In this document: in pieces, positions 48,006-52,041 of the stretch
Numbering within the stretch: the stretch's first letter is position 1
How the letters are laid out: each line of letters starts with the position of its first letter
Origin: an uncultured Bacteroidales bacterium
Lineage (GTDB): Bacteria; Bacteroidota; Bacteroidia; Bacteroidales; Bacteroidaceae
DNA: 64,000 nucleotides
Direction: 5' to 3'
NCBI GenBank assembly: GCA_902799685.1
Contig: CADCBO010000021.1
Location: 18,759 to 82,758, forward strand
The notes under the pieces: generated by a model
Seen by the model: only the letters and a program-made list of their open reading frames with translations
Told to the model about the DNA's origin: nothing
Database searches by the model: none
Position numbers and translations under genes: made by a program

Positions 48006-48377
48006 ATGAAAGCATTGACAGAGAAAGAGCAGATGGTAATGAGTGTACTGTGGGAGCACAGGCACTGCAGCGTTGATGATGTGGTAGGATTCCTTCCGGA
48101 ACCCAAGCCGGCCTATAATACAATACTAACGTTCCTGCGTATTCTTGAGAAGAAGGAATTCATATCGTATCAGGAAGAGGGACGTAAGCATATCTACTAT
48201 CCGTTGGTTGAGAAAGGTGAGTACACCCGATGGACGCTGACCGAGATGAAGGACAAACTCTTTAACGGATCTGCCCGCTCTATGGTCAACACCTTTATTA
48301 TGGAATCGGGTCTGAGTGACTCCGATGTACGTGAGCTTATTGATATGTTGAACATGCTTGAAACCGCAAAGTCATGA
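48006..48377 (+). CDS. BlaI/MecI/CopY family transcriptional repressor
   Basis: This 123-residue winged-helix repressor starts at ATG 48006 (a GTG precedes it at 48003). The 'LTEKEQMVMSVLWEHRHCSVDDVVGFLPEPKPAYNTILTFLRILEKKEFI' domain is the family DNA-binding region; the C-terminal part has the dimer helices. It is expected to be cleaved or released by the M56 sensor downstream, which overlaps its stop by 4 nt (ATGA). The perfect palindrome at 47986-48001 is the likely operator, giving autorepression. No beta-lactamase gene is adjacent. Confidence 0.93.
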   Translation: MKALTEKEQMVMSVLWEHRHCSVDDVVGFLPEPKPAYNTILTFLRILEKKEFISYQEEGRKHIYYPLVEKGEYTRWTLTEMKDKLFNGSARSMVNTFIMESGLSDSDVRELIDMLNMLETAKS

Positions 48378-49216
48378 TTTACCTTATAGTATCCGCCATA
48401 TCGCTGGCCCTGATGGTGACAGTTTACCGCCTCACTTTGAGCCGTACCACATTCCACGGATTCAACCGTTTTGTGCTGCTGGCAACCCTGGCACTGGCAG
48501 CTGTAGTACCGGTGATGCATTTCCAGAGCATCAGCAGCAGGGCATCGGCACCTATTAATTATATGCTGGGCGAGATTATGGTTTATGCCGATGGTACAAT
48601 GGGCGTAAATCACGTGCAGGCAACGGAGTCCGGCAGCAGCATAAGTATGTTATCGGTAATTACGGTTGTCTATCTGGCCGGGTTGATATTCTGTCTGCTC
48701 AGAATTGCATTCGGCATACTGAGCTCAGAGATCATATGTCACCGACGTTCCAGAACGCTTGCCGACGGAACCCGTCTGGTTATAACCGAGCGCAACTATG
48801 CCCCGTTCAGCTGGCGTAACTGCATAGTGATTTCACGAAAGGATTATGAGTCGAACGGCGCTATGATTATAGCCCATGAGCAGGCGCATGTGCACCATCA
48901 CCACTCGTTTGACCTTATCCTGGCCCAGCTGTTCTGCGCCTTCCAGTGGTTCAATCCGGCTGCATGGATACTGCGCCGCAGCCTGCTGGAGGTTCATGAG
49001 TTTGAGGCCGACGCATCGGTCCTGGAGGATGGCTTTGACGGCCGCCGTTATCAGATTTGTCTTGTCCGTGCTGCACTGCAGGGCAGTTTTGCGACAACCA
49101 CAAATAATTTCTCAAATTGTTCAACCAAAAAAAGAATTGTTATGATGAACAGACATTCAACAAATCCTTGGGCACGCCTGAGAGGCGTTGTCAGTTATAG
49201 TTGCATCGGCCTGTAA
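48374..49216 (+). CDS. BlaR1-type M56 membrane peptidase (frame ends early)
   Basis: This 280-residue membrane sensor-peptidase has helices at about 1-20, 33-50 and 93-115. The zinc motif is HEQAH (168-172), with a third ligand in 'LEVHEFEADASV'. 'MMNRHSTNPWARLRGVV' is where the intact Bacteroidales proteins continue into a fourth helix, linker and TonB-like C-terminal domain. Here the frame stops at 49216, and the next frame (+1) continues with a helix-like 'SVIVASACKQ' and the TonB domain. This suggests a frameshift, so the gene is probably a broken or sequencing-disrupted form of a 420-430-residue protein. Confidence 0.88.
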   Translation: MIYLIVSAISLALMVTVYRLTLSRTTFHGFNRFVLLATLALAAVVPVMHFQSISSRASAPINYMLGEIMVYADGTMGVNHVQATESGSSISMLSVITVVYLAGLIFCLLRIAFGILSSEIICHRRSRTLADGTRLVITERNYAPFSWRNCIVISRKDYESNGAMIIAHEQAHVHHHHSFDLILAQLFCAFQWFNPAAWILRRSLLEVHEFEADASVLEDGFDGRRYQICLVRAALQGSFATTTNNFSNCSTKKRIVMMNRHSTNPWARLRGVVSYSCIGL

Positions 49217-49643
49217 ACAGGATACAAAGAGTGAGATGAATTTGAAGACGCAGGATGCATCCCCTAGCAGTGTTTTTGTGGATATTCAAGAATATGAAAT
49301 TGAGGAGGCCGATTCGACTGATGAGGTGTTTTGGGTGGTGGACCAAAGACCGGAGTATCCGGGTGGTGAAGCAGCTCTGATGGAATACCTGAGAAGTAAT
49401 TTACAATATCCTGAGAGATGTAAGGAAAACAAGATTCAGGGCCGTGTGTTAATTACTTTTGTGGTCAATAAGGATGGTAGTATAGTTGAACCGGCGGTTG
49501 TAAAGAGCGCAGGCCCCGCAGGCGTTGAACTGGATGTTGAGGCATTAAGGGTGATAAGCGGAATGCCGGCCTGGACTCCCGGAATGCAGAATGGTGAGGC
49601 TGTACGTGTCCAATACACCATTCCGGTGGCCTTCCAACTCTAA
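49188..49643 (+). pseudogene. TonB C-terminal domain, frameshifted 3' part of the M56 gene
   Basis: This 151-codon frame begins within the end of the M56 gene, in the +1 frame. It carries 'VVDQRPEYPGGEAALMEYLRSNLQYPERCKENKIQGRVLITFVVNKDGSIVEPAVVKSAG' and 'AWTPGMQNGEAVRVQYTIPVAFQL', the TonB C-terminal fold. In Bacteroidales this domain is often fused to M56 peptidases. If translated alone, the ATG at 49236 would give a soluble 135-aa protein without a membrane anchor. It converges on the EFR1-type gene with a 4-nt overlap. Confidence 0.75.
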
Positions 49644-50395
49644 AAATGATACTGACCTTTGCCCTGGGTGGCGTTGCCAAAGTTGATGGCGTTCTTGGGG
49701 CATCGGTGGTAGCAACTCATGCAGTTGGTGCAATGGCCGTTCCAATGGGGACGGTCATTCTCTATTGTGATGTTCTGCAGGGGGCAGTTTTTGGCACAGA
49801 TGCCGCAGCCGATGCAGGCGTCCGATACCGTGAACTTGCGGTCGGTTATGAGCAGACCGTAGAACAGGGGCTTGAGGATATTTGATTTAAAGAACGATGA
49901 TTCGCCCTTGAGCTTGTTGAAACTGCCTTTAGTACGCTCCTTTATGAGTTGTACAGCATCCTTAAGGCTTGATTTTGTGCCCTCTATCTTGCTCTGAACA
50001 TTCTCAGGGGTATCCAGTTTGAAACCGGGCAGGTTGATGTAGGTCTCGGGCATCTGGAATGAGAAGAATGCGTCCAACTGCAATCCCTGTTTGCTGAGGT
50101 CCTTGCAGAGATGCTCATACGTAAGACCGGTCTGATCGCCACAGGTGCAGGCTGCGAATATATATGATGGTTTGCCTTTGATGCTGACTGTGCGCAGAAA
50201 CTCCGATACCAGTTTGGGTACTGACCATGAATAGACGGGAAAGACTATTCCCAGTATCTCATCGGGGCCGAATTCCAGTTCCATTCCCTGGCGGGTGGCC
50301 TCGGGGATGAATATCATGTTGCTGTCTGCGAGTTCCTTTGAAAGGGTATCGGCTACAAAGCGGCTGTTGCCGCATCCGGAGTACCAGAGTATCAT
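49640..50395 (-). CDS. EFR1-type flavodoxin/ferredoxin protein
   Basis: This 251-residue redox protein has an N-terminal flavodoxin-like domain ('MILWYSGCGNSRFVADTLSKEL', 'GIVFPVYSWSVPKLVSEFL') and two [4Fe-4S] clusters at the C-terminus ('CIGCGICAKNCPLQNI' and 'CTNCMSCYHRCPKNAI'). It matches the EFRODO/EFR1 family. It probably carries electrons, perhaps for the iron-sulfur enzyme QueH encoded immediately upstream. Its ATG overlaps the QueH-fusion stop by 4 nt. Confidence 0.92.
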   Translation of the reverse strand: MILWYSGCGNSRFVADTLSKELADSNMIFIPEATRQGMELEFGPDEILGIVFPVYSWSVPKLVSEFLRTVSIKGKPSYIFAACTCGDQTGLTYEHLCKDLSKQGLQLDAFFSFQMPETYINLPGFKLDTPENVQSKIEGTKSSLKDAVQLIKERTKGSFNKLKGESSFFKSNILKPLFYGLLITDRKFTVSDACIGCGICAKNCPLQNITIENDRPHWNGHCTNCMSCYHRCPKNAINFGNATQGKGQYHF

Positions 50396-51501
50396 ATCAC
50401 AAGATCCATTTTAATGTCATTGTCATCGACCGGCACAGCTGGCAGTTTCTGGCAGTCAAAGCAGACGCCGGCCTTAACGGCGTGCGGTAGCTGGGGCAGC
50501 AGGCGGTCGTAGAAACCGCGGCCGCGTCCCATACGGTTTCCGGCGGCATCAAACGCACGGCCCGGAACCAGCACCAGCGTTATGGGGCTCAGGTCCGATA
50601 CCTGCTCTCCGTCCGGTTCCGGAATGCCGAACTGCTCTCCCGGTTTTAGCGTGCCGTCATAGCGTTTCACTATAAGGTCATCGCCCTGTATTGAAGGCAG
50701 ATAGAAACGTTTGCCTAAAGCGGTCCATTTTTCTATGAATGCAGGGGTCTGTACCTCATCATACATTGACCAGTAAATCAGTATGTCGGTTGCATCCTTA
50801 AAAGTCTGATTCTGCTCCAGACGTTCCCAGATGGAGGCGGACTGCGCAGCTTTCTGCTCCGGAGTCATTACTGAAATGAGCCGGCGGATGCGCTGGCGGG
50901 CCTGTTTCTTGTCATCATGCATGGCGTTCATGCTGAACTCGCAGCCACAGTAGCGCTGGTTATAGAAATTCTTCTCCTGTATTATCTGCGACCGTCGTTC
51001 CTGCAGGCCTCCTTGCCGCCAGTTGCGCTCCCAGAAAGTCAGTCCCGGGAACTGTGCCGCAGCCCAACGGCCAGCTTCCACTATCTGGTCGTGGCGTTTC
51101 CATCGGCTGGAATCAAGGGTGGATGTAAATACCGTGAACCCGTGTTCAGATGCATATCGGGCCGCACTCAACAGGCGCGTCTTGAAACATTCCAGGCAGC
51201 GCGCCCCGCGTTCAGGCTCACCCTCCAGACCTTTGATGCAGCATTGCCATTCAGCATGGTTGTAATCTGCATCAATTATCTCAAGGCCCAGGCTGCGGGC
51301 GTAACGGCTGCACTCCTCCTTGCGTACCAGATACTCCTCAAGCGGGTAAATATTGGGGTTGCAGTAGTAGATTACAGGGGTAATTCCGTTATGCAGCATC
51401 CATTCTATTATGGCTCCGCTGCATGGGGCGCAACAGGTGTGCAGCAGAACCCTGGCGGCTCCTCCAGGCACCTTATCCTGTGTGTTGTCCCTGCTGCCCA
51501 T
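50392..51501 (-). CDS. Fusion of QueH (epoxyqueuosine reductase) and 5-formyltetrahydrofolate cyclo-ligase
   Basis: One open 369-residue frame. Residues 1 to about 194 are QueH (DUF208): 'LLHTCCAPCSGA' (C23, C24), 'YYCNPNIYP', 'CLECFKTR' (C102, C105), 'TSTLDSSRWKRHDQI' and 'YCGCEFS' (C185, C187). QueH reduces epoxyqueuosine to queuosine in tRNA. Residues about 195-369 are 5-FTHF cyclo-ligase (MTHFS): 'DDKKQARQRIRRLISVMTPEQK' and 'MGRGRGFYDRLLPQLP'. MTHFS converts 5-formyl-THF to methenyl-THF. The start at 51501 overlaps the Fur stop by 1 nt (TAATG). Both domains look intact. I know both as separate proteins and cannot say how common the fusion is. Confidence 0.93.
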   Translation of the reverse strand: MGSRDNTQDKVPGGAARVLLHTCCAPCSGAIIEWMLHNGITPVIYYCNPNIYPLEEYLVRKEECSRYARSLGLEIIDADYNHAEWQCCIKGLEGEPERGARCLECFKTRLLSAARYASEHGFTVFTSTLDSSRWKRHDQIVEAGRWAAAQFPGLTFWERNWRQGGLQERRSQIIQEKNFYNQRYCGCEFSMNAMHDDKKQARQRIRRLISVMTPEQKAAQSASIWERLEQNQTFKDATDILIYWSMYDEVQTPAFIEKWTALGKRFYLPSIQGDDLIVKRYDGTLKPGEQFGIPEPDGEQVSDLSPITLVLVPGRAFDAAGNRMGRGRGFYDRLLPQLPHAVKAGVCFDCQKLPAVPVDDNDIKMDLVI

Positions 51502-51953
51502 TATGCGTAATGTACATGTTCAAATGGCCGAAGCCCTTTTCTTACAGCACACTCCGGGCAAATGCCCTTGGCCATGTAGTTCACGCTATCCACGTGGAAT
51601 CCTTCCGGAAACTTCACTGAGGGTACAGGTATCTGTTCTATACAGAAAGTCCTGTGGCAGACCTCGCAGTGGAAATGAACGTGACGGTCATCGTCAATAT
51701 CACCATGGGCGTGGCATAACTCGTATCGTACCCCCTCACAGCCATCGTCTATCTGGTGCAACAGATGGTTATCCTTAAAGAGTGTAAGTGTGCGGAATAT
51801 GCCGGACTTGTCTATGGAGTCAATGCGGTCCTCCAGTTCCGCCATGGTGACCGGGTGGTCTAACTCTTCCAAAGCCTTTAGCACCAACAGTCTGTTGGCA
51901 GTAGGCTTGATGCCGTGCTCCTGCAATATTTTTTCCGGATTGTCCATTTTCAT
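51501..51953 (-). CDS. Fur-family transcriptional regulator
   Basis: This 150-residue metal-dependent regulator begins MKMDNPEKILQEHGIKPTANR; an alternative start is the ATG at 51947. The winged helix 'RLLVLKALEELDHPVTMAELEDRIDSIDKSGIFRTLTLFKDNHLLHQI' is followed by the dimerisation domain with 'HVHFHCEVCHRTFC' and 'CPECAVRKG', a structural zinc site (CxxC twice). Whether it senses Fe, Zn, Mn or peroxide is not readable. It leads the operon with the QueH fusion and EFR1 protein, so it may control those redox/Fe-S proteins. Confidence 0.92.
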   Translation of the reverse strand: MKMDNPEKILQEHGIKPTANRLLVLKALEELDHPVTMAELEDRIDSIDKSGIFRTLTLFKDNHLLHQIDDGCEGVRYELCHAHGDIDDDRHVHFHCEVCHRTFCIEQIPVPSVKFPEGFHVDSVNYMAKGICPECAVRKGLRPFEHVHYA

Positions 51954-51966: not shown

Positions 51967-52041
51967 GTCAATAATGTATATGAAAGCCTACCGAAATATC
52001 AGATTTTATGTATATTCGCGGTATTCTTATAAGAATTGCGT

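Follow-up and report, generated by a model that had tools for sequence, protein, structure and literature searches.

A single open reading frame of 369 residues in the window (the whole 64,000-nt stretch of DNA analyzed here) joins an N-terminal QueH domain to a C-terminal 5-formyltetrahydrofolate cyclo-ligase (5-FCL, or MTHFS) domain, and the same pair is fused in the same order in two further groups of Bacteroidales. The gene probably encodes a bifunctional housekeeping enzyme, with activities predicted from its two protein families, that arose as queH genes repeatedly acquired mthfs at their 3' ends. QueH is a cobalamin-independent epoxyqueuosine reductase that carries out the last step of queuosine synthesis, epoxyqueuosine to queuosine in tRNA, and 5-FCL uses ATP to convert 5-formyl-THF to 5,10-methenyl-THF; DUF208 is an older name of the QueH family. 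The genes and domains concerned are as follows.

50392..51501, minus strand: queH-mthfs fusion gene, 369 aa, single open frame
50926..51450, minus strand: QueH domain, epoxyqueuosine reductase family, residues 18-192 (PF02677)
50395..50910, minus strand: 5-FCL/MTHFS domain, residues 198-369 (PF01812, TIGR02727)
51501..51953, minus strand: Fur-family regulator gene, ATG at 51953, TTG at 51971 (PF01475)
49640..50395, minus strand: EFR1-family flavodoxin/ferredoxin gene (NF038196)

Architecture of the fusion gene

Both domains named in a first-pass annotation of this DNA were confirmed. The QueH half matches PF02677 with 195 bits (E 1e-57, profile positions 1-174 of 175 covered), and the MTHFS half matches PF01812 over residues 198-369 with 123 bits and TIGR02727 (MTHFS_bact) with 140.4 bits, above the equivalog cut-off of 84.9. 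The conserved QueH cysteine motifs (CC, C-x2-C, C-x-C) are all present, as that annotation had stated, in the form of CCAPC (residues 23, 24, 27), RCLEC (102, 105) and CGCE (185, 187). The motif G-x-G-x-G-[FY]-Y-D-R, presumably the ATP-site motif of 5-FCL/MTHFS, occurs in the window's MTHFS half; of 63 fusion frames scanned, some genomes being counted more than once, 59 have it, and the four without it (L019, L052, L057, L118) are cut or frame-broken. The two halves are joined with almost no linker, and the 369-residue frame runs without a stop through the junction (residues 193-197, about 50911-50925). The gene matches its own genome at 100% (G000:C21:69153-70259), and the span first annotated, 50392..51953, comprises the fusion together with the Fur gene, at whose ATG it ends. 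A structure model of the fusion has a mean pLDDT of 90 and a pTM of 0.84, and together with fold comparisons and the family matches it supports both halves being complete domains with the conserved motif residues.

Solved relatives of either half are separate proteins. Thermotoga maritima QueH (PDB 7lc5, 7lc7, 9deu) stands alone with 192 aa, whereas the window QueH is fused to MTHFS, and solved MTHFS proteins (human 3hy4/3hxt; B. anthracis 2jcb) are single domains of 184-203 aa, whereas in the window this domain is the second half of a fusion. The T. maritima comparison rests on PDB entries, and no paper on that protein was found in the literature searched. Where T. maritima QueH reads CCAPD, the window fusion reads CCAPC, with Cys27 at the position of Asp13, which is mutated in PDB entry 9dco (D13N). 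All aligned QueH sequences have Cys at this position (fusion residue 27), a possible second ligand class. Among the matches listed, unfused Bacteroidales queH and mthfs products are 46-72% and about 34-52% identical to the respective window halves; in genomes outside the fusion groups the two genes lie, among the matches listed, at different places, and many such genomes show only queH or only mthfs.

Distribution, copy number and origins

All 37 genomes of the window's genus (g1) were searched for the fusion. The frame is open across the junction in 28, of which 23 are full length and five (G003, G005, G011, G022, G028) are cut by a contig end or frame break; in G004 the contig runs out before the junction is reached. 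Because the frame spans the junction in 28/37 genomes, an assembly artefact was ruled out as the source of the fusion. Eight g1 genomes are without it: G024 and G030 have separate, divergent QueH and MTHFS genes, G032 has QueH only, G001 and G027 have MTHFS only, and neither was found in G002, G009 and G013. The two domains, which the first-pass annotation knew as separate proteins, are encoded separately in G024 and G030; among the matches listed, many relatives show only one of them. QueH of G030, G032 and G024 (L064, L065, L067) is very different and sits on a long branch, as if replaced by transfer.

Searching other genomes for the two-domain order found it in two more groups. It occurs in at least 13 of the 139 genomes of g35, a second genus of the same family, and in a third group, here RUG (L150, L151, L153-L156), of MAGs titled Bacteroidales or Prevotellaceae; RUG in MAG names presumably denotes rumen genomes. 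A scan of named genomes, in which fusions were ranked first among at least 80 loci and which gives no frequency, returned at least 14 fusion loci (four of g1 type, four of g35 type and six of RUG type). The domain order, QueH first, is the same in all three groups, and the fusions are 46-89% identical to the window protein. In draws of 393 genomes of the order and 394 genomes of the phylum, no fusion except the window's own was present among the matches listed, to which these results apply, and a very distant fusion could thus be hidden.

In the cell the fusion very likely serves as both epoxyqueuosine reductase and 5-FCL, a prediction based on the presence of Tgt and QueA with no QueG and no second copy found. 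In its own genome (G000), where Tgt scores 469 bits and QueA is also present, a search for QueG or for another QueH or 5-FCL gave nothing, which leaves the fusion as sole candidate for the two functions; as G000 is 85.8% complete, a second copy or QueG could be missing from it. QueG was likewise not found in nine further fusion genomes, and G017, which is 100% complete, shows neither QueG nor any copy besides the fusion. In a test of 14 genomes that included 10 fusion genomes, QueA was found in all, Tgt in 13 (not in the fusion genome G006) and QueG, at a score above its cut-off, in two (G001 and G027), both without QueH and the fusion; a QueG match in G030 (20 bits) fell below cut-off. The fusion is single-copy in 29 g1 genomes (as gene or piece) and 13 g35 genomes, except that G005, G022 and G028 have extra matches to fragments of this one gene and that G738 has one second match that is not among the matches listed. 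Two QueA-family genes (PF02547) are present in each of the 14 genomes tested, and in G000 the one with the lower score is split in two (G000:C7:97878-99025).

In trees of each domain the g1, g35 and RUG fusions are separate, with unfused genes between them, and in the QueH tree the unfused gene of G132 falls among the RUG group. The first trees left out duplicates of a genome and the truncated or broken fragments L052, L055, L057, L058 and L059 and kept the frame-broken L019 as is; later trees and the AU tests also left out long-branch and near-identical rows, and the g1 and g35 fusion clades were identical in both. Six AU tests were run on quick trees, with uncorrected p values. Placing groups together in the MTHFS tree gave p values of 0.0012 (2.6e-5 with more rows) for g1 and g35, 0.042 for g1 and RUG and 0.055 for g35 and RUG; in the QueH tree the values were 5e-5 for g1 and RUG, 7e-5 for g35 and RUG and 0.054 (0.046 in another row set) for g1 and g35. 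For each pair of groups one domain clearly rejects the union, whereas the other is marginal or non-rejecting. These results favour separate fusion origins, as do the junctions and gene neighborhoods; two origins are thus well supported, and the best trees point to three. The sequence at the join, following the CGCE[FY]S motif, is different in g1, g35 and RUG, with a short linker in each. An unfused queH in G132 (L080) stands in the order DnaJ-type gene, queH, ffh, folD, and L155 (RUG) has the fusion at the same place, which looks like a before-and-after pair, with a queH already in place gaining mthfs at its 3' end.

Among 167 distinct QueH frames, 45 continue into an MTHFS half and 122 have none. 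An MTHFS frame lies near only one of the 122, L055, itself a broken fusion (loci of 2.1-8.7 kb), and another, L059, belongs to a fusion group but is truncated where its contig stops. Because the query was the fusion, the sample is biased toward MTHFS fusions, and no probability is given. No QueH fusion partner except MTHFS turned up in several lineages. The order also has a NadD-like domain (cytidylyltransferase-like, probably NadD) before QueH (L043:1501-2643, minus strand), an LplA-like domain (biotin/lipoate ligase family) after QueH (L089:2976-4355, plus strand; same gene in L047) and RpiB (ribose-5-phosphate isomerase B) after QueH (L177:3974-5041, plus strand), and QueH may therefore be fusion-prone. 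N-terminal QueH extensions in L077 and L067 were considered as an extra domain and rejected as over-long frames with no second Pfam family; those in L128 and L129 were likewise taken as over-long reading frames.

Gene neighborhoods and metal control

The fusion gene overlaps both of its neighbors exactly as the first-pass annotation had described: the Fur-gene stop overlaps the fusion ATG by 1 nt (TAATG, at 51501), and the EFR1-gene start overlaps the fusion stop by 4 nt (ATGA, at 50395). The EFR1 gene scores 253 bits against NF038196 (cut-off 75), and the Fur-type protein scores 34 bits against PF01475, above the gathering score of 23.1. Among NCBIfam subtype models the PerR models alone match the latter, at 34 and 24 bits vs cut-offs of 180 and 200; for its relative in L143, Fur and Irr models also match, at 20-22 bits, and PDB matches are weak. 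The proposed Fur-fusion-EFR1 operon recurs across g1, with EFR1 directly after the fusion in 24/26 genomes with enough flank and Fur before it in 23/28. The examined loci of the g35 and RUG fusions yielded neither Fur nor EFR1 nor COG0523. Since Fur and EFR1 are not beside these fusions, and genomes have EFR1 irrespective of QueH, the operon characterizes the g1 genus and not the fusion. Relatives with the same fusion but no EFR1/Fur beside it thus exist, which counts in part against the first-pass reading; no earlier description of the fusion was found in the literature searched. Homologues of the Fur gene are present in 13 of 17 other genomes searched; at the loci examined none lies beside COG0523, and outside g1 none lies beside QueH or EFR1.

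Upstream of Fur, on the same strand, 16/29 g1 genomes that have the fusion gene or a piece of it (many with short flanks) carry a ZigA-like COG0523 gene, and G031, in a longer stretch, is a seventeenth; none was found within the 64,000-nt window. The L143 protein passes the Pfam cobW and CobW_C models. With the ZigA model NF038288, L143 and L144 score 343.6 and 342.4 bits, respectively, below the cut-off of 600, and the gene is therefore called ZigA-like and not ZigA.

EFR1 had been put forward as a plausible electron donor for QueH, and as a general rule this was ruled out by its distribution: it is present in 18/29 QueH-positive and 10/14 QueH-negative genomes, QueH status being taken from numbers of matches per genome. 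EFR1 above the NF038196 cut-off was not found in the fusion genomes G016, G230 and G649 (81-89% complete).

Control of the g1 operon by metal, for which Fur had been named, is plausible by analogy with three published cases, each cited here from the available part of its source: COG0523/Zur is linked with the queuosine and folate paralogues QueD and FolE2 (PMC2770081), a metal requirement is stated for most queuosine enzymes (PMC9508795), and a P. gingivalis locus with 5-FCL, an S41 peptidase, dCMP deaminase, DUF2023 and flavodoxin has iron-depleted/iron-rich ratios of 1.8-133.6 (PMC10434189). As described in PMC2770081, Zur-regulated COG0523 clusters share with the g1 relatives a COG0523 gene and a Fur-family regulator by a queuosine/folate gene; they have QueD/FolE2, whereas g1 has QueH and 5-FCL with a Fur-family regulator that scores below the cut-offs of the subtype models it matches. 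Zinc is as likely a candidate signal as iron, given the ZigA-like COG0523 gene upstream of Fur in so many g1 genomes. A perfect 14-base palindrome, ATTCTTATAAGAAT, at 52023-52036 upstream of the window Fur gene was dropped as a candidate Fur box, with no counterpart upstream in the relatives examined.

Among 12 g35 fusion loci, rsmF lies upstream in nine, four of which (G230, G649, G660, G627) have folA-thyA-rsmF; G657 (L141) has rsmF, and folA and thyA were not found in its 9.1 kb. The remaining g35 loci are too short to tell whether folA/thyA are present, and the named g35-type locus L147 has thyA-rsmF. Four RUG loci (L150, L153, L155, L156) have a DnaJ-type gene upstream of the fusion, and 2/6 (L151, L155) have ffh-folD downstream; Pfam identified ffh and folD in L151 and the DnaJ-type gene in L155, and the others were named by similarity. 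In the window, positions 48374-49643 hold an M56/BlaR1-like gene (280 aa) and a TonB-like frame (151 aa) that overlap in different frames, where L143 and L144 have one frame (470 and 434 aa, respectively) that resembles the window M56/BlaR1-like gene at its N-terminus; the window probably has a frame break here, the gene names being given by eye. ARAGORN finds no tRNA or tmRNA genes in the window (1-64000).

Causes and meaning of the fusion

Both enzymes are already known, and the fusion is a recurrent, probably bifunctional form of QueH. QueH and 5-FCL together, and queuosine and 5-FCL together (both in the cyclo-ligase spelling), were not found in the literature searched, which covered few subscription journals. 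The N-terminal half would convert epoxyqueuosine to queuosine in tRNA and the C-terminal half 5-formyl-THF to 5,10-methenyl-THF with ATP, at two active sites that are most likely independent. The mthfs gene would have been joined end to end onto the 3' end of queH at least twice and most likely three times. The trait selected may have been the joint, equal production of two low-abundance enzymes, a fixed ratio with joint control being the advantage easiest to imagine. In g1 only, the fusion would also be translationally coupled into an operon with the Fur-family regulator and the EFR1 electron carrier, and in many g1 relatives with the ZigA-like COG0523 metallochaperone, a placement that probably ties fusion output to metal status.

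The alternatives all concern the cause of the fusion, and each is compatible with both halves being active. We consider it rather unlikely that the fusion is neutral, a harmless chance loss of a stop between neighbors in fusion-prone QueH lineages. Such an event fits the minimal linkers, which resemble end-to-end joins, and the other QueH fusions (NadD-like, LplA-like, RpiB), but the same partner and order recur in at least two lineages, mthfs was found at no examined locus with unfused queH, and the fusions have been retained across 46-89% identity to the window protein. One ancient fusion, spread horizontally and followed in some clades by exchange of one half, is unlikely; in its favour, several uncorrected AU values are near 0.05 (QueH g1 and g35 0.054; MTHFS g35 and RUG 0.055, g1 and RUG 0.042). 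The hosts may share a habitat, as the four titles that name a host or organ, among at least 14 loci, all name reindeer or water buffalo. Against a single event stand the clear rejections (MTHFS g1 and g35, 0.0012 and 2.6e-5; QueH g1 and RUG 5e-5, g35 and RUG 7e-5), the differing junctions and loci of the groups, and the unfused queH of G132 at a syntenic place.

A direct functional link, in which the folate domain protects, repairs or gates the QueH iron-sulfur centre, is distinctly improbable, and we give no better chance to its other form, in which the pair couples wobble-base modification or the QueH reductase to the folate pool and one-carbon supply. The repeated joining of these two domains, each time with QueH first, would suit it, as would the folate genes adjoining some fusions (folA-thyA-rsmF in four g35 loci, ffh-folD in 2/6 RUG loci), and the pTM of 0.84 may suggest a fixed domain arrangement. 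Folate neighbors also occur without the fusion, however, as in G132 with its unfused queH by ffh and folD, and G657 has rsmF without folA/thyA in 9.1 kb; no substrate is known that is common to both enzymes, and each domain is also found alone in relatives. The queuosine and folate pathways share their first enzyme, GTP cyclohydrolase I, and no link at their QueH/5-FCL end was found in the literature searched. A precedent is the folate-dependent YgfZ, reported in the available part of its source to keep the tRNA-modifying Fe/S enzyme MiaB in repair (PMC3223725).

Capture of mthfs by queH for joint production thus remains our preferred explanation. The fused and unfused pair at one locus is natural material for studying the origin of bifunctional enzymes. 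Fused domains are classically read as a sign of linked functions, all the more so when a fusion is repeated with the same partner and order; the repeated QueH-MTHFS fusion in these gut bacteria therefore hints at an unrecognised link between queuosine and folate, which is directly testable because the fusion is one expressible protein. If a direct link is true, 5-formyl-folate turnover would be tied to the final, iron-sulfur-dependent step of queuosine synthesis.
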